Part shown: positions 55,401-63,320 of the stretch, one piece after another
How positions within the stretch are numbered: position 1 is the first letter of the stretch
Layout of the letters: the number at the start of each line of letters is the position of its first letter
Source: Burkholderiales bacterium
GTDB lineage: Bacteria > Pseudomonadota > Gammaproteobacteria > Burkholderiales > SG8-41
Assembly: GCA_030684405.1 (NCBI GenBank)
Contig: JAUXYA010000024.1
Coordinates: 1 to 64,000, forward strand
Reading direction: 5' to 3'
DNA: 64,000 nt
Translations under genes and position numbers: made by a program
Notes under the pieces: model-generated
The model's database searches: none
The model's input: only the letters and a program-made list of their open reading frames with translations
What the model was told of the DNA's origin: nothing

Positions 55401-56677
55401 ATCATCGACTGCGCGTCTCCCGGCAATTCCCAGAACTCCAACGCAGGGCGTCCTACCGCGGCTTCGCGCTGCGGCAACCGCCACAGTTCCAGAAAAGCCC
55501 GGTTCACATAAAGCAGTCGGTCATCCGGTCCGACAATCGCCATCGCAACCGGCACGGACTCGATGGCAGCCTCCTTGATGAGGAGGTTTTCGTTCGCCGT
55601 GACCAGGTCGGTGGCATCGGTGACATGGCCCTCGAGAAAAAGCAGCTCACCCCCGGCGTCGTGGATCCCCCGCCCGCGCTCATGCACCCAGCGCAAAGTC
55701 CCGTCGCGGGTATGGATGCGGTAGGTGAGCACGAAATCGCTGTGCCGGGTCAGTGCCTCCTGCACGCCTGTCCAAACCCGATCGGCATCCCCGGGATGGA
55801 TCAGCCCGCCCCAGGTCTGCTGGTGGCGCAGAAACTCATCTCGCGGATAACCGCAGAGTTCCTCGACGCCAGCGGTCATGTCGAGCACTGTCCACTCACG
55901 ATCATTGCTGCAACGATAGACAAATCCATTCAGGGTGTTGAGCACCCGCCGCAGGTGGTCGCTGCTGATGACGTTTAACTGGCGAGTCATTATCGCGAAT
56001 GCAAGAGCGATGACAAGCGCGCACAACGCCCGCACCAGTTCGACCGGAACACCGACCAGGGCAAGGAACTCCGCGCCGGTCGGCAGCCATGCCGGCAGTC
56101 CGGCAGCGCCAGCGGTCACAAACAGTGTCAAAAATCCATAGCCCATAAAACCCAGGGCGAGAACGCTCAGCCAGAACAAGGCAGCTTCGTTGACAGGGTT
56201 GGCCAATTGCCTGCGCTTGATCCCCAGCAGCGCCAGCCCGGTCAGCAGGCTGGCCGGCATTCCGACAAAATAGCGCGTGCCGGCCGCCAGTCCGGACAGG
56301 GGATCCGCCGCCCACCACGCCATCACCGCCACAGCGCCGCAGGCCAGCCCGTGCACCCATGCCGCGCCCAGCGCGGCGCCCTGCAGACTCACGTGGAGCC
56401 GGCGCCCGAACTCCAGCAATGGCAAATAGGAAATCAACAACAGCACATGGCCCAGCAGTGCCAGCGACGCAAGCGGTTGATCCAGCAGATATCCTTGCAG
56501 CAGTTGCGACAATCCGTGCAGGAGGCCGAACGCCGCCAGCAGCCACAGGGATGGCCTGTTGAGTTGCGGCAACACATCGCTTCGAGGCAGCATCAAAACA
56601 ACCACTGCCAGCAGCAGAAAGGCCGCGCCGTAAACCTGGTAGACCAGGCCGGGATTCACCTCAGTCCAGCCAGCCAT
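52457..56677 (-). CDS. Hybrid sensor histidine kinase with membrane sensor and six PAS domains
   Basis: From the ATG at 56677 (GGAG upstream; an ATG 15 nt earlier has none) the protein has 1406 residues. About seven transmembrane segments fill residues 10-235. Six PAS/PAC units follow (about 250-1020), then HisKA with His 1046 in SHELRTPLNG, HATPase_c (N-box LLSNAVKFN, DSGIGI, GLGLAI) and a C-terminal receiver with Asp 1330 in LLDINLPG. It should autophosphorylate and pass phosphate to its own receiver. It lies 54 nt downstream of a second giant kinase on the same strand. No Hpt or output regulator gene is adjacent. Signal unknown. Confidence 0.93.
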   Translation of the reverse strand: MAGWTEVNPGLVYQVYGAAFLLLAVVVLMLPRSDVLPQLNRPSLWLLAAFGLLHGLSQLLQGYLLDQPLASLALLGHVLLLISYLPLLEFGRRLHVSLQGAALGAAWVHGLACGAVAVMAWWAADPLSGLAAGTRYFVGMPASLLTGLALLGIKRRQLANPVNEAALFWLSVLALGFMGYGFLTLFVTAGAAGLPAWLPTGAEFLALVGVPVELVRALCALVIALAFAIMTRQLNVISSDHLRRVLNTLNGFVYRCSNDREWTVLDMTAGVEELCGYPRDEFLRHQQTWGGLIHPGDADRVWTGVQEALTRHSDFVLTYRIHTRDGTLRWVHERGRGIHDAGGELLFLEGHVTDATDLVTANENLLIKEAAIESVPVAMAIVGPDDRLLYVNRAFLELWRLPQREAAVGRPALEFWELPGDAQSMMDTLRSPGGWRGELRARLRDGSLADLQVTTRLVPRSSEEESLCLMASFIDVTAQKRVEHEVRQERDFTAGLIKAAPVIVLVLDIRGFIRHVNPYFEQLSGYRLDEVKGKDWFQMFLPARDRGAIRTLLVQTIYGEPVQGHVNTLLTRGGAERQIEWRSQVVTDVIGNPVEVLAIGQDVTEQQQAENALRESRARLQAVIDAATEVAIIACDKDGVVVLFNKGAERMLGHASEEMVGRCTPLVFHLPAEVASRAEVLSRDYGRPVEGMDVFLEPARRGDFRPREWTYLRKDGSRRIVTLVVTALRDGFGDTAGFLGVATDISERKQAETVRAQLAAIAENSYDAIVMRDLDGFITSWNPGAERMFGFTPAEAIGRPISFNGVPGKIPVFKDVTRRLLNGETVKPYPTQRMHKDGRVLDVLTCISLVRNDAGEIIAVASIFQDITPIKQYEAALEQANKELGQRVAERTAALSERERQLSRAQAIARMGYWTVNVQTGELVWSEEVYRMFGRDPKSFVPSQTLFFEIVHPDDRELIQRVQRDAFQTGVVYSVDHRIVLPDDEIRWVHEEAQVETDAQGLPSSMTGTVQDITERKLAEEAVLAARDEAEAANRAKSEFLSRMSHELRTPLNGILGFGQLLELDQATLTTEQRDSVQQILESGRQLLHLINGLLELGRIEAGRLELQMGIVDAGALAEECMSAILPAARAANVTVHFSPCSTSARVHADPVRLREILLILLSNAVKFNKSGGRLDISFEADDESLVCSVRDSGIGIAAADIPYLFDPPGNADRMTALQQNSGLGLAIAGRLLALMGGEVRAESTVGTGSVFHVRLRRAGGDTASMPPMRGGGAPEHAGVVLYVDDDEASCALMEAVLSGTRYRLVTAGTGEQALELVRQGLVPSLVLLDINLPGMSGFDVLANLRLNPLFARIPVMAMSAGALPEQVERILAAGFLRFVEKPVMLGVLETVLPGIKLRRGRRPGG

Positions 56678-56731
56678 TCCTGAGCTCCGCATTGCGGTTC
56701 AAATGTCTGTCCTTTCAACCCGATACCCCGT

Positions 56732-59700
56732 TCAGGGCGATGCCCCGGAGCGACCTGCCGTTTTGAGATACCGATCGATCACCCGATAAAACGCTGCCAC
56801 ATCCAGGGGTTTGGTCAGGTACTCGGCAAATCCGGCGGCTCTCCCCTTTGTGATGTCCTGCGGCATGGCATTTGCACTGATTGCAATCACCGGGGTTTCC
56901 GCGCAGTCCTCCGATGCCCGCAGCAGATTCAGCACCTGAAAACCGCTGATGCCCGGCAGACTGATGTCGAGCAGGATCAGATCCGGACGATGCTGTTGCG
57001 CCAGGTCAATGCCGAGTTGCGGCGTGTTCGCCAGGAACAGGCCAATGTCAGAACGGCGGGCCAGTAGCTGCTCCACCAGTTTCAGGTTGGCGCGATTGTC
57101 TTCGATGTATAGGACGACATGCTGCCCCCCCGTTGCTCTGTCCCGCACCGGCCGGATCCCGGAATGCGGCGGCACTGCAGCATACGGCAGCCGCTCAGCC
57201 GGCAATTCCACCCAGAACGTGCTGCCTTCCCCGGCCCGGCTTTCCACCCCTGTCTGCCCGCCCATCAGTTCGGCCAGTCGCCGGGTAATGGCGAGGCCGA
57301 CGCCTGCACCCTCAACGGTGCTGGACTTGCCGACGAGCCGCCTGAAAGGCTGGAACAGTTCAGTCAGACGGTGTTCGTCTATGCCCATACCCGTATCACG
57401 CACCATCAATCGCAGGCGGTCACCGCCGGGGTCTTCGGCAAAGACCTGCAACATGCCCTGCTCGCGATTGTATTTCACGGCATTGGAAAGCAGGTTCAAC
57501 AGGATTTGTTTGAGCCGCATGCGATCCGCGCGTACCGCCTTGCCCGCCAGATTGGCGCTGGATACGGTAATCCCCCGCTGTGCGGCCAAGGGCGAGATCA
57601 TCTGCAGGCAATCGGCGACCAGCTCTTCGCAATCCACCACCTCGAACGAGAACTCGATATTGCCGGACTCGATGCGCGACAAATCAAGCACTTCGTTGAT
57701 CAGTTCGAGCAAATGGCGGCCGCCTTTGGTGATCTCCCGCACCCACTTCCGTTGCCGCTCGTCCAGGGCGTCGTCGACGTCCAGCAATTGCGCGAAGCCG
57801 AGGACGGCATTCATCGGCGTGCGCAGTTCATGGCTCATCCTGGACAGGAACTCCGACTTCGCCCGGCTCGCCTGCTCCGCCTCTTCCTTGGCCAGAACCA
57901 GGGCCTCCTCGGCCTTGATTTGCCAGGTCACATCCTGAGCAGTACCGGACATCCGGACAGCCCGCCCGGCATCATCAAGTCTCACTGTGCCCAGACCTCG
58001 AATGTAATGATTGCTGCCATCCGGCCATACGACTCGATGGACGCACTCATAATCTCGGCCACCACCTAGTGCCCGCTGAAGGGTCTCTTCCACGCGAACC
58101 ACATCCTCGGGGTGAATTCCTTGCCGGAAGAGGGCATAGCTGGGCGTGGTGGACTGCGGCGCCAGTCCCCACAGGCGAAAATGCTCATCGGACCACAGCA
58201 ATTCCCCGGAAACGGGATCCCAATCATAACTGCCCAGATGCGCCACCTCCTGCGCCTCGTGCAGCTGCCGCTGCCGTTCGGCCAGCGCGAGTTCCGTTCG
58301 CTTGCGCTGGTCGATGTCCTGCACCACCCCCAGCATGCGCTGGGGCTCGCCATCAGAACCGCGAACCACGTCGCCGGATTCCAGCAACCAGCGCACCTCG
58401 CCGTTCGGCCAGATGCAGCGGTGTTCGATATGGTATTTTTCGCCGCGCTTGATACAGGCATCGACGGCATCGACGACTTTCTGCCGATCCCCTGGGTGAA
58501 TGGCATTGAGGAAGTTTTCATACTTCGTTTCAAGCTCGCCTTCCGGATAACCAAACAATGGGGCTATGCGTTCGGACCAGAAAAGCTCGCCGGTCTGAAT
58601 GTTCCAGTCCCAGGTGCCGATGTTGGCGTAATTTTGGCTATTGCGCAGGCGAATCTCACTGTCCTGCAGGGCTTGCCTTGATATGAGACTCTCGGAGACG
58701 TCTTCACTGACGCCGATAAAATGGGTCAGACGGCCGCTGGTATCACGCAAGGGCACAAGGCGCAGATGATTCCAGAACAATTCGCCGTTTTTGCGGCAAT
58801 TGCGGATTACCGCCTCCACCGGTTGCTCTTTGGCGATGCCCCTGCGGATGGTCTCCATGGCCTCCTCGTCGCGCACGTCGCCCTGGAGGAACCGGCAGTT
58901 GCGGCCGATCACTTCGGCACGCGTATAGCCGGTGATGCGCTCGAAAGCCGCATTGACATAGATCAGTGGCAGCAGCGGATCCCGGGCATTGGCAATCGCG
59001 ATGCCGCTGGCTGCCGCTTCCAGCGCGCGTTCGCGCAAATGCAGCAAATCGATGTTGGCCTGCAAGGTCCGTGCTGCACGCTCACGCTGGATTGCAAGGT
59101 AGAAGAAGTTGCCCAGGATCAGGAGCAAACCGGCTTTATCTGCCTTCCAGATGCGTCTGGATTGCACTGCGTCATACCCCAGAAAACCCTTGGTGATGCC
59201 ATTGCTCCTCAGCGGCACCGCAATCAGGGACTGGATTTGCTGGCCCTCGAATAGTGCCTTCTCCACAGCAGCCTCCGGCGGAAGGGCAGCCACATCAATG
59301 ATGACAAAGGGCTTTTGCCGAATCTGTTCGAGCCCCCAGGGTAACGCGGACGACGGCATATCCTGGACCTTGTGCATCTGCGGCTCGATGCCGGGCGCGC
59401 ACCATTCATGCGTGTTGCTGAGCAAGTCGCCATCCTCCGAATACAGGAACAGATAGGCGCGATCGGCGCCGAGCAACTCGCCGCTCGCCCGTAACGACCG
59501 GTTGACGGCGGCATCCATGTCCTCTTCAGGTACAGCCAGAAAATCGGCTGCCACATCAGTGATCATCTGCTGCAGCATGCTGTGATAGCGCAGCCTTGAT
59601 TCGACAGCCTTGATGTGGGTGACATCGGTGCGTATCGACACATACCGATAGGGCACGCCCTGTTCATCCGCGAACGGTACGATGGTGGATTGAACCCAAT

Positions 59701-61117
59701 ACAGACTGCCATCCTTGCGGCGGTTGCAAATCTCCCCGTGCCATGTTTCGCCTCCGGAGATTGCGCACCACAGATCGTCGTAGAACCCGGGGGGATGTTC
59801 CCCGGACTTGAGCATTCGGTGGTTGCGTCCCAGCAGTTCCTCCCGCTGATAGCCGCTGATCATGCAAAACCGGGCGTTGACATAAACAATCGTTCCCGCT
59901 GCATCGGTCACACTGACGATGGCATGTGCATCCAGTGCCTGCTGGTACCGCTCGTGCTCATGGAGCATGGCGTGCAACAGCCTCGACTGCCGCACCGACT
60001 GGCGGAAACGCCGCGCCAGGATTGCCGCTGCCGTGGCCAGCTTTTGCGCTTCACCCGACCTGATGAACAGGCCGGACGCCGCTGAAACCGCCACTGCCCG
60101 CTGCAAATCGCGTTCATCCTCTTCGGCAAAAAAAATGACCGGCGCCTGTTCCTGCCCGAGTTCGTCGCGCAGGAGTGCGGCGAGCTCTGGTCCCGGGCAT
60201 TGGGGCATCCGCGCGCTGATTACCAGCACTTCCGCAGCAAACTCCTGCGATGCGTGCAGTGCCTGAAGCGGATCCCTGAGTTCCCTTACTTCCAGCCCGG
60301 CCTGTCGCAGCATCAATGCATGCGTGGCAAGGCGTCCCCCATCGCTCTCGATCAACAACGCGCGATAGGGTTCGGCAGATTGCAACGCAGCAGACTCTGC
60401 GATTGCCCGCAACAGCGTATCGGGAGACGCCGGCTTGTGCAGGCAAATGTCAACGCCGGCACCGTAGGCAGCCAGTTGTGCAGCCAGATTCTGTCCACCA
60501 ACCAGCATGATCACCGCCAGCCCCGGCCAGCGCTGCTTCACTTCGGCAAGCATGCGCTCACCTGCGACACCGCTCTCGAGCAGCGCATTGTTCACCATCA
60601 CTGCAGCAGGCGCTTCTCTCTGCGACAGGCAAGCATCATGCAAGGCATCAAGATCGCCGTATTCCACTACACGATAACCTGCTCCCTGCAGTACGCAGCA
60701 GAGGTACGCAATCTGGTCCGGATCGGTATCCACAACCGCCACGACAGGCGCCGCCGCACCTGCCGCCGCGGGCGCCAACAGGATGTCGGTGTTGCGAACC
60801 AGCGTCTTCGCAGCCGCAAGCAGTTGCGAAAAGGCCAGCCTGGCCGCTGAAGTCTGGCTCTCTCCGCGCAAAGTCGACACGGCGATCACGGCCTGCTGCA
60901 GGGTGCAGGCCGCATGAAAGACGTCGGCGAAATGCAGCGCACCGGCATCGTTGGCCAGGTTCCGCACTTCTTGCTGCAAGGACTCGAGTGGTGCAGTCTC
61001 ACCACACAATACTGCAGTCAACAGTTCTTCTATCCGCGCCAGGCGCTCCGGCAGCGCCGCAGAAAACTCGATCAACAGACTGCCGATTGGCCGTGGAAAG
61101 CGGTTTTGCAGATTCAT
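56732..61117 (-). CDS. Hybrid sensor histidine kinase with a LOV-type PAS domain
   Basis: Numbered from the ATG at 61117 (a TTG 15 nt upstream is an alternative), the 1461 residues comprise an Hpt-like helical region (about 10-110), two receiver-like domains (about 125-245 and 250-370), PAS (about 390-510), GAF (about 512-690), a LOV-type PAS (about 700-815), two further PAS units (about 825-1065), HisKA with His 1096, HATPase_c (LLSNAVKYN, DTGMGI, GVGLAI) and a receiver with Asp 1384 in LLDISLPG. GRNCRFLQG (738-746, Cys 741) is the flavin-adduct motif of blue-light receptors. No transmembrane helix is seen, so it should be cytoplasmic. It is probably co-transcribed with the kinase downstream. 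Confidence 0.93.
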   Translation of the reverse strand: MNLQNRFPRPIGSLLIEFSAALPERLARIEELLTAVLCGETAPLESLQQEVRNLANDAGALHFADVFHAACTLQQAVIAVSTLRGESQTSAARLAFSQLLAAAKTLVRNTDILLAPAAAGAAAPVVAVVDTDPDQIAYLCCVLQGAGYRVVEYGDLDALHDACLSQREAPAAVMVNNALLESGVAGERMLAEVKQRWPGLAVIMLVGGQNLAAQLAAYGAGVDICLHKPASPDTLLRAIAESAALQSAEPYRALLIESDGGRLATHALMLRQAGLEVRELRDPLQALHASQEFAAEVLVISARMPQCPGPELAALLRDELGQEQAPVIFFAEEDERDLQRAVAVSAASGLFIRSGEAQKLATAAAILARRFRQSVRQSRLLHAMLHEHERYQQALDAHAIVSVTDAAGTIVYVNARFCMISGYQREELLGRNHRMLKSGEHPPGFYDDLWCAISGGETWHGEICNRRKDGSLYWVQSTIVPFADEQGVPYRYVSIRTDVTHIKAVESRLRYHSMLQQMITDVAADFLAVPEEDMDAAVNRSLRASGELLGADRAYLFLYSEDGDLLSNTHEWCAPGIEPQMHKVQDMPSSALPWGLEQIRQKPFVIIDVAALPPEAAVEKALFEGQQIQSLIAVPLRSNGITKGFLGYDAVQSRRIWKADKAGLLLILGNFFYLAIQRERAARTLQANIDLLHLRERALEAAASGIAIANARDPLLPLIYVNAAFERITGYTRAEVIGRNCRFLQGDVRDEEAMETIRRGIAKEQPVEAVIRNCRKNGELFWNHLRLVPLRDTSGRLTHFIGVSEDVSESLISRQALQDSEIRLRNSQNYANIGTWDWNIQTGELFWSERIAPLFGYPEGELETKYENFLNAIHPGDRQKVVDAVDACIKRGEKYHIEHRCIWPNGEVRWLLESGDVVRGSDGEPQRMLGVVQDIDQRKRTELALAERQRQLHEAQEVAHLGSYDWDPVSGELLWSDEHFRLWGLAPQSTTPSYALFRQGIHPEDVVRVEETLQRALGGGRDYECVHRVVWPDGSNHYIRGLGTVRLDDAGRAVRMSGTAQDVTWQIKAEEALVLAKEEAEQASRAKSEFLSRMSHELRTPMNAVLGFAQLLDVDDALDERQRKWVREITKGGRHLLELINEVLDLSRIESGNIEFSFEVVDCEELVADCLQMISPLAAQRGITVSSANLAGKAVRADRMRLKQILLNLLSNAVKYNREQGMLQVFAEDPGGDRLRLMVRDTGMGIDEHRLTELFQPFRRLVGKSSTVEGAGVGLAITRRLAELMGGQTGVESRAGEGSTFWVELPAERLPYAAVPPHSGIRPVRDRATGGQHVVLYIEDNRANLKLVEQLLARRSDIGLFLANTPQLGIDLAQQHRPDLILLDISLPGISGFQVLNLLRASEDCAETPVIAISANAMPQDITKGRAAGFAEYLTKPLDVAAFYRVIDRYLKTAGRSGASP

Positions 61118-61132
61118 GGGGACGATGGCCAA

Positions 61133-61621
61133 GATTGAAAATTGGTCCTGATTGAGTGAAACGTATCACGGCGACACCTGCCGCATCCCGCACCGGAGAC
61201 GCTGGGAGCGTTATTTTTCAGGCGCCGGGGCCTGCCCGGGCACATGAGGTCAGCCCGGTCATGCAAACCGGCGATGATCGTCGCCACGTATCAGCCACCC
61301 GAAAAACAGTCTGATTGGCAAGGCTGCATTGACTCTGCCTGTGCCCAGGAATATTACCTTTGTATTATATAAGGGAAAGGGATTTCAGACGTGCCGCCGC
61401 CTGGTTCACCCTCCATCCCCGTCACTGGCATCGTATTGTTGCCGTTGCTTTCTGATGAGTTGCTCAACCGCGCAATAGACAGCAGGCGGCCGCATCCATA
61501 ATCCGGCTTTACGGCCGATTCCGGCAAAACTTGAGGCTGGTCCGCGGGTTCATGGACGGTCTTAAGGCATTTTTATATTCCCTCCATAATCGCCGGGTGG
61601 ACGCGATGGATCACGGTGGCC
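61133..61621. other. Intergenic region without a recognisable gene
   Basis: About 490 bp between the kinase gene and the terminator of the amidohydrolase. No ORF with coding character was found. An AT-rich patch at 61350-61372 contains promoter-like hexamers on both strands but no convincing pair directed at a gene. Confidence 0.6.
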
Positions 61622-61645
61622 AAAAAAAAGCGCGGTCTCCCGCGC
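61622..61645 (-). terminator. Intrinsic terminator of the amidohydrolase gene
   Basis: On the minus strand the stem GCGCGG/CCGCGC (61630-61645, 4-nt loop) is followed by eight T (61622-61629). It lies 23 bp past the stop codon at 61669. Confidence 0.9.
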
Positions 61646-61668
61646 CTTCGATGCCTGCGACCTCAAAC

Positions 61669-63177
61669 TCAGGTTTTCTTCGCGACAAACCCGTAGGCCA
61701 TGTTGGTGCGCCCCGGCCCTTCCTGCTCGTAGGTTTCCTTGATCTGCGCCACACGGTCGACGATGATTTCCGCCTGCTGTTTCGGCGTCACGTGGTACAA
61801 GCGTGCGTTGTTGCCGCCGAAAATGGCGTTTTTGACCGGGCCGTCGGCGGCGCCGAGCGGCCGGTAGCCATACTTCTTTTGCATGTCCTCGGGAATCTCC
61901 AGACGGCGCAGGGCTTCGATCTGCCACTGCGGCGCGCCGGTCCACACCGCGTCGGTACCCCACACCACGTTGCTGCTGCCGAGGCCCTTGATCAGCGTCC
62001 CCATCACCGCCGCGCCGAGCCGCGGGTTGGCGGTAGTGGTCCAGGCAAAAAGCTGGCCGAGGTCGCCGTAGACATTCTTGACACCGTACTTCTCCGGGAT
62101 CTCGGCAAGGTCGGTGACCCACTCGATGCGGCCGGTTTTCTCGAAATGCTCCCAAGCGGCCTTCGGCGCGTTGGGGCCAGTCCAGCGCCAGCCCGAGTGA
62201 TAGATGATGAAATTCAGCTGGGGCCAGTCCTTCGCCGCCTTGCCCACGTCGCGCACGTCCGAGTATTCGAGCAGATGCGGAAACTTCTGCTCGATCTGGG
62301 GCGGAAACAAACCCTTGTGGATGCACACGTTCTTCAGGCTCGGATTGGTCTTGCTCCACTTCAACAGCTTCTCGTAAAACGGGTACATCACCTTTTCATC
62401 ATCGAGGCGGAAAGGCCACTTTGAGAGGTGCTTGTTGGTGTTGTCGCCGATGGTGTAGCCCTTCCATGAATCGGGCTTGAGCCGCGCCTGCTCCTCCTCT
62501 ACCTTGTCCAGCCAGCCGGCATGTCCGGGCGTGAATATCGCATGCGAAAAGCTGCGCCGGGTGCCTGCCTCCTTGTTGATCTTCTCGCGCGCAGCGTACT
62601 TCATGTCGTTGGTCAGGAAGGAAAACGCGGGATCGACCGAATAGGAGCCACTGATGCAGCCGACCTTGGTGTCGCTGTCGAGGTAGATCTCCTTGAAGTA
62701 GTTCGGAAACTTCAGGTCGTCGATGGTCTGCTCCTTTTCGCCGATCTGCAGGTTCCAACCGAGCTTGCCCACGGTCGCGCGCTGGGCGACAAATGTCTTG
62801 ATCGGTGTGTCGTCGCGCAGGAAATGCGTGTGCATGTCCATGATGAACTGGTTCTTCAGCGCCTTCGCCCGCTCGTTGGCCATTTCCGGAGTGGCGGCCT
62901 CGGCACGGCTGACCATGTAGAACGGGCCATAGGTTTCGTTCATGGCGACGAAAGCGGCCGCCATTCCAGCGGCCGACTGGAAGAAACGACGACGGCTGAC
63001 CCCCTGCTTGCGCGCGAGTTCGGCGCCGTACTCCTTGATCCGCCCCTCGAACTCGCGCTGCTTCTCGGTCTGAGGCGGAGGCATGTACTCGTCGCTGGAC
63101 ACGCACTGCACGGGAATCGGCGACGGGAATATCGATTCTGCGGGGTCTAGCTGTTCGAGCTCTTCCGGGCTAAGCAT
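61669..63177 (-). CDS. Amidohydrolase-family protein with an internal twin-arginine signal
   Basis: From the ATG at 63177 (GAGGGAG upstream) the protein has 502 residues. A hydrophilic leader of about 60 residues precedes SRRRFFQSAAGMAAAF (from 61), a Tat-type motif with cleavage possible near EAAT at about 95. The hydrolase domain begins MDMHTHF (HxH) and contains CIHKGLFPPQIEQKFPH, NFIIYHSGWRW and a late VVWGTDAVW with the catalytic Asp. Export of a folded metalloenzyme is likely. An upstream frame to 63303 lacks a ribosome-binding site. It has its own terminator. Substrate unknown. Confidence 0.87.
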   Translation of the reverse strand: MLSPEELEQLDPAESIFPSPIPVQCVSSDEYMPPPQTEKQREFEGRIKEYGAELARKQGVSRRRFFQSAAGMAAAFVAMNETYGPFYMVSRAEAATPEMANERAKALKNQFIMDMHTHFLRDDTPIKTFVAQRATVGKLGWNLQIGEKEQTIDDLKFPNYFKEIYLDSDTKVGCISGSYSVDPAFSFLTNDMKYAAREKINKEAGTRRSFSHAIFTPGHAGWLDKVEEEQARLKPDSWKGYTIGDNTNKHLSKWPFRLDDEKVMYPFYEKLLKWSKTNPSLKNVCIHKGLFPPQIEQKFPHLLEYSDVRDVGKAAKDWPQLNFIIYHSGWRWTGPNAPKAAWEHFEKTGRIEWVTDLAEIPEKYGVKNVYGDLGQLFAWTTTANPRLGAAVMGTLIKGLGSSNVVWGTDAVWTGAPQWQIEALRRLEIPEDMQKKYGYRPLGAADGPVKNAIFGGNNARLYHVTPKQQAEIIVDRVAQIKETYEQEGPGRTNMAYGFVAKKT

Positions 63178-63320
63178 GGCAACTCCCTCCTCGACTGAAT
63201 GGATTGCTGAGCATGCACCGCGCAGGGGCCGTTCGCGGGACGGTCTGATGTTCTGGGTGCGAGGCGTCTCAGGAGTTTGCGACGCGGTCAGCCACGGTGT
63301 CAAACCGCGGCGGCGAAAAC

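Follow-up and report, generated by a model that had tools for sequence, protein, structure and literature searches.

A LOV domain with serine at the signalling-glutamine position in a hybrid histidine kinase of a Burkholderiales bacterium, and the state of this position among its relatives

A large hybrid histidine kinase of a Burkholderiales bacterium was found to carry a near-canonical LOV domain in which Ser809 occupies the position of the signalling glutamine. The gene lies in a 64,000-nucleotide stretch of DNA, the whole of which is called the window here. Judged from the residues and the modelled fold, this domain was best read as a blue-light sensor without the Gln and as one of two flavin-type inputs of the kinase, and we gave this reading a probability of about 0.6. 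The need for a flipping Gln in LOV receptors is debated, and the evidence comes mostly from engineered mutants. In addition, relatives of the bacterium appeared to carry Gln-less LOV domains unusually often.

The kinase and its LOV domain

The minus-strand ORF of the kinase was open over 1,466 codons from its first TTG, and its base composition by codon position was of the coding type. An alternative ATG start at 61115-61117 would give a kinase of 1,461 amino acids. Residue numbers in an earlier sequence-only reading of this DNA were lower by 5 than the TTG-based numbers used here, which was consistent with this ATG start. The domain order was Hpt-like, REC, REC, PAS, GAF, LOV, PAS, PAS, HisKA, HATPase and REC (Table 1). 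The protein was assigned as a hybrid histidine kinase by its Pfam matches, with His1101, the ATPase motifs and Asp1389 all intact.

Table 1. Positions of the kinase genes, domains and single residues in the window
Feature	Position	Strand	Basis
Hybrid histidine kinase, 1,466 or 1,461 aa	56732..61132	-	ORF, translation, Pfam
Hpt-like helical region, about residues 16-115	60788..61087	-	L120 alignment, four-helix model
REC1, phospho-Asp position = Asn181	60398..60742	-	Pfam, alignment
REC2, phospho-Asp position = Ser306	60038..60376	-	Pfam, alignment
PAS, MmoS/Aer/NifL FAD type, residues 394-514	59591..59953	-	MmoS 3ewk match, pocket residues
GAF domain, about residues 537-680	59093..59524	-	Pfam GAF_2 and GAF
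LOV domain, residues 700-815	58688..59035	-	phmmer, AlphaFold2, PDB fold matches
Gly743 codon	58904..58906	-	
Cys746 (TGC), predicted flavin-adduct cysteine	58895..58897	-	position in translation
Asn778, first flavin-ring Asn	58799..58801	-	position in translation
Asn788, second flavin-ring Asn	58769..58771	-	position in translation
Ser809 (AGT) at the signalling-Gln position	58706..58708	-	alignments
Two PAS domains (PAS_3 type) separating LOV from kinase, about residues 850-937 and 965-1080 (boundary of the second set by eye)	57893..58585	-	Pfam PAS_3, translation
HisKA (His1101) and HATPase_c	57194..57862	-	Pfam, residue positions
C-terminal REC, Asp1389 intact	56789..57115	-	Pfam, residue positions
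Second hybrid kinase, 1,411 aa	52457..56692	-	ORF, Pfam; 39 nt downstream of the first

The LOV domain was compared with solved LOV domains using phmmer. The alignments were gapless over the whole domain, and the best match was 9vf7 (3.6e-32). All nine residues of the LOV signature of Dietler et al. were present, and the GxNCRFLQ motif was found with the adduct Cys and the two flavin Asn. At the place of the conserved Gln in the last strand, Ser809 was found instead, and it faced Gln in 5 of the 5 phmmer alignments shown, all of which were to solved LOV domains. The AlphaFold2 model, made with 28 alignment rows, had a mean pLDDT of 92.9. Among the PDB fold matches listed for this model, 50 of 50 were LOV or LOV-containing structures. 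A match of fold and sequence by chance was excluded. The sequence-only reading had described a giant hybrid kinase with a near-canonical LOV domain, with the adduct motif and both FMN-contacting Asn present and Ser in place of the Gln, and each of these points held.

The LOV fold and the flavin pocket residues were common to this domain and to Meiothermus LOV 9vf7, Brucella LOV-HK and YF1 (4gcz). However, the solved domains carried Gln in the 5 alignments shown, whereas the window domain carries Ser and lies in the middle of the chain, within a longer sensor array.

The gap of 39 nt between the two kinase genes suggested co-transcription, and by this spacing the downstream kinase is a probable co-transcribed partner of the LOV kinase. 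Its N-terminus was hydrophobic and resembled several membrane helices by eye, and Pfam gave several PAS matches, HisKA, HATPase and a receiver. Upstream of the LOV kinase, at 61669-63303 on the minus strand, an amidohydrolase-type protein was seen (Pfam Amidohydro_2), with no NCBIfam match at 0.001. A promoter-like site was looked for within 56600-61700 and none was found. A search of 74 family genomes for an orthologue of the N-terminus of the LOV kinase found none, the best match having 26% identity. At least 5,000 plasmid records matched the kinase; among the 5,000 listed, all were below 60% identity and none had a single place covering over 80% of the query.

A second flavin-type domain and an N-terminal module without phosphorylation sites

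The first PAS domain of the kinase gave MmoS PAS-A (3ewk) as its best PDB match (1.1e-48). Four residues of the FAD pocket of Aer and MmoS are named in the available text of PMC9668731. All four of the residues named there were present as Thr409, His438, Asn470 and Arg501, which were mapped by eye on the 3ewk alignment. These pocket residues were common to the window PAS and to Aer and MmoS; unlike the MmoS PAS-A, Aer and NifL domains, the window PAS lies in one protein with a LOV domain. By these residues, a redox domain of the FAD type and a light domain of the FMN type are probably combined in the kinase.

The N-terminus was homologous to L120 (25% identity, 5e-28), which is a protein from another genome of the same family with the architecture Hpt-REC-REC-GGDEF. 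In L120, this stretch matched Pfam Hpt and two receiver domains; in the kinase, the Hpt-like region alone had no Pfam match. The single-sequence model of the N-terminus was a four-helix model of low confidence (pLDDT 75.3). Its PDB matches included CheA P1 and Hpt proteins, none of them at or below 0.001. L120 keeps the His and both Asp and has a GGDEF output, whereas the window protein has Arg57, Asn181 and Ser306 opposite these three residues and is a kinase instead. No phosphorylatable His or Asp was found in the positions of a functional Hpt-REC-REC phosphorelay within the module at 60038-61087. From the alignment, the role of this N-terminus would be structural or regulatory at most.

Blue-light input and the alternatives

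LOV domains without the Gln were an already known exception. About 350 natural examples were catalogued, with Ser among the substitutes, and a Mesorhizobium LOV-GGDEF protein with Met for Gln was repressed by blue light, as described in the available text of Dietler et al. (2022, PMC9098866). According to the same text, the light response of YF1 survives most substitutions of the Gln and is abolished only by Pro, His, Trp, Tyr and Arg, and water substitutes for the Gln in the model of the authors. Ser is not named in this part of the text; by analogy with YF1, it should be tolerated at the Gln site. A Gln-less LOV domain is taken there to have at least 8 of the 9 signature residues and no Gln, and the window domain had 9 of 9 and Ser. 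Because the Gln is dispensable in this literature (PMC9098866, as far as its available text goes), we placed the domain in the Gln-less subclass, of which it is a further example. It was similar to the receptors described in that text in the retained adduct Cys, in the signature and in having another residue for Gln. However, the receptor tested there was a LOV-GGDEF protein with Met, whereas in the window protein the LOV domain has Ser and belongs to a hybrid histidine kinase.

In the proposed working, blue light would cause Cys746 to bond to C4a of FMN, with protonation of N5, as in other members of the family. The N5 proton would be coupled to the beta-sheet by the hydroxyl of Ser809, by water in the space of the Gln, or by both. 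The helix at the C-terminal end of the domain would carry this change on to the next two PAS domains, and the kinase/phosphatase balance would be shifted at His1101 and Asp1389, residues that were seen in the translation and whose function is predicted. The upstream PAS probably binds FAD and would report the redox state, so that light and redox signals would converge on the kinase.

The main alternative was an eroding photoreceptor, in which the LOV domain folds and may bind flavin but gives no light signal, serving as a structural PAS while the FAD-type PAS and GAF are the real inputs. The replacement of the Gln by a residue whose codon, AGT, has a different base from CAA and CAG in each of its three positions pointed in this direction, as did the three lost phosphorylation sites at the N-terminus, the search of 74 family genomes that gave no orthologue, and the long branch of the domain in the LOV tree (0.66). 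However, the full signature with its Cys and both Asn was kept, the 1,466 codons were open with coding-type composition, and the residues of the kinase and of the last receiver were intact; we considered erosion the less likely reading, though a serious rival. It was also possible to regard the LOV flavin as a redox or semiquinone sensor with N5 protonated on reduction, rather than as a light sensor. In the available text of PMC9098866, Cys-less LOV domains signal via the neutral semiquinone and a descent of LOV domains from redox flavoproteins is proposed, and the same kinase has the FAD-type PAS. On the other hand, the adduct Cys was kept although it would be superfluous for a pure redox sensor, and a second redox sensor beside the FAD-type PAS would be redundant. 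This was judged improbable, more so than erosion.

A canonical Gln displaced by a shifted register was rejected and was given almost no weight. Nothing was found in its favour, and besides the gapless phmmer alignments, the 28-row alignment had a one-residue insertion in row L093, upstream of the Ser809 site, as its sole indel after the Cys. Thus no Gln was brought in by a change of register, which the sequence-only reading had named as an outcome that would refute it.

Blue-light input, which the same reading had suggested, was retained as the best reading on the basis of the Cys, both Asn and the modelled LOV fold. The altered signal transmission that it had added may be possible, but this was weaker than it sounds since most Gln replacements in YF1 keep the light response in the available account (PMC9098866). 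The genome of the window was also searched for photosynthetic reaction-centre and BLUF families, and no match was found. The organism is therefore probably not phototrophic.

The Gln position among relatives

LOV domains were found at E 1e-20 or better in 8 of 21 genomes of the genus, at 9 places, two of which were in the genome of the window. The second of these (L163; G000:C16, near 78141-78488) carries Gln and lies before GGDEF-EAL, and six genus counterparts carry Leu. The catabolic gene surroundings to which the sequence-only reading had drawn attention gave no argument against light sensing, as this genome has that other LOV domain with Gln. All 8 genus LOV domains besides that of the kinase had GGDEF and EAL motifs downstream. 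The position of the Gln was occupied by Gln in 2 of them (the genome of the window and G019) and by Leu in 6, and the adduct Cys (TGC) was present in 8 of 8. In the tree, the two Gln rows and two Leu rows formed one clade with a support of 98, and those two Leu rows were joined with a support of 99. Tree and architecture suggested that the Gln and Leu proteins of the genus may be regarded as orthologue-like.

The pN/pS values were between 0.09 and 0.48 over all 28 pairs of these 8 relatives, a set that does not include the LOV domain of the kinase. This meant that the LOV-GGDEF-EAL domains of the genus are under purifying selection with or without the Gln. If Gln-less domains stay functional, low pN/pS and a Cys kept in 8 of 8 are the pattern to be expected in the genus.

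The order Burkholderiales was sampled by 300 genomes drawn evenly. With the window LOV domain as the query, 108 places reached E 1e-20 or better and all of them were read, and a profile of 16 Gln-type domains gave 20 further places in the same genomes, these being the best-scoring new ones. Of these 128 places, 64 kept the Cys and had 8 or more of the 9 signature residues. The Gln was present in 26 of these 64 domains and absent from 38, in which the residues were Leu (18), Ile (8), Ser (5), Ala (3), Glu (2), Thr (1) and Met (1). Bias of the query was considered as the cause of the Gln-less excess and was rejected; the Gln-type profile moved the count from 37/58 to 38/64 and the excess stayed.

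When this filter was combined with a score cut, domains without the Gln made up 5/50 in the rest of the class and 5/46 in the rest of the phylum, together 10/96. The order entered this comparison with 38/64, where one Gln domain was added and one was lost to the score cut. A raw Fisher test of 38/64 against 10/96 elsewhere in the phylum gave 4e-11 for domains that share ancestry, and the ancestry-aware comparison had just one independent pair on supported branches. The LOV tree was weakly resolved, with 63 of 140 inner branches open. The large searches scored the best-ranked candidates per genome, so that some domains may have escaped in each of the groups. The Gln-less excess in the order is thus an observation on this sample, given as a raw count.

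Domains without the Gln occurred in 14 of the 25 order families that have a LOV domain with the Cys and both Asn. When LOV-like domains of the order were counted that had 7 or more of the 8 remaining signature residues, the Cys was kept slightly less often without the Gln (38/49) than with it (26/31). Output type was considered as a cause of the Gln-less excess: a GGDEF motif lay downstream of 29/38 Gln-less domains and 9/26 Gln domains, but flanks were short and 10/26 of the Gln domains were unassignable. Two domains, L186 and L207, had Glu at the Gln position and Gln as the next residue (VAIEQDVT), that is, a displaced Gln. Another LOV-like domain, L148, naturally lacked both the Cys (Val) and the Gln (Ile) and kept the other signature residues. 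In a literature search on LOV in Burkholderiales, Betaproteobacteria and Burkholderia, no title on a Gln-less pattern was found.

Taken by itself, the domain of the window would be no more than a routine entry in the known list, and the pattern in the order and genus was the more interesting lead. We tentatively suggest, at somewhat less than even odds, that the LOV domains of the order mostly signal without the Gln. In close relatives the site would toggle between Gln and Leu while the Cys stays fixed, and the Gln would be a tuning residue for spectrum, recovery or efficiency and not the transducer. The window kinase would then be an extreme case, with a Ser-type light input and a redox-type FAD domain. 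The Gln and Leu proteins of the genus have few other differences and offer a natural matched pair for the role of the Gln. If the count in the order holds, this bacterial group offers natural Gln-less receptors together with Gln-bearing near relatives, and if the reading of the Gln as a tuning residue is true, the order would be a natural test bed for its role.
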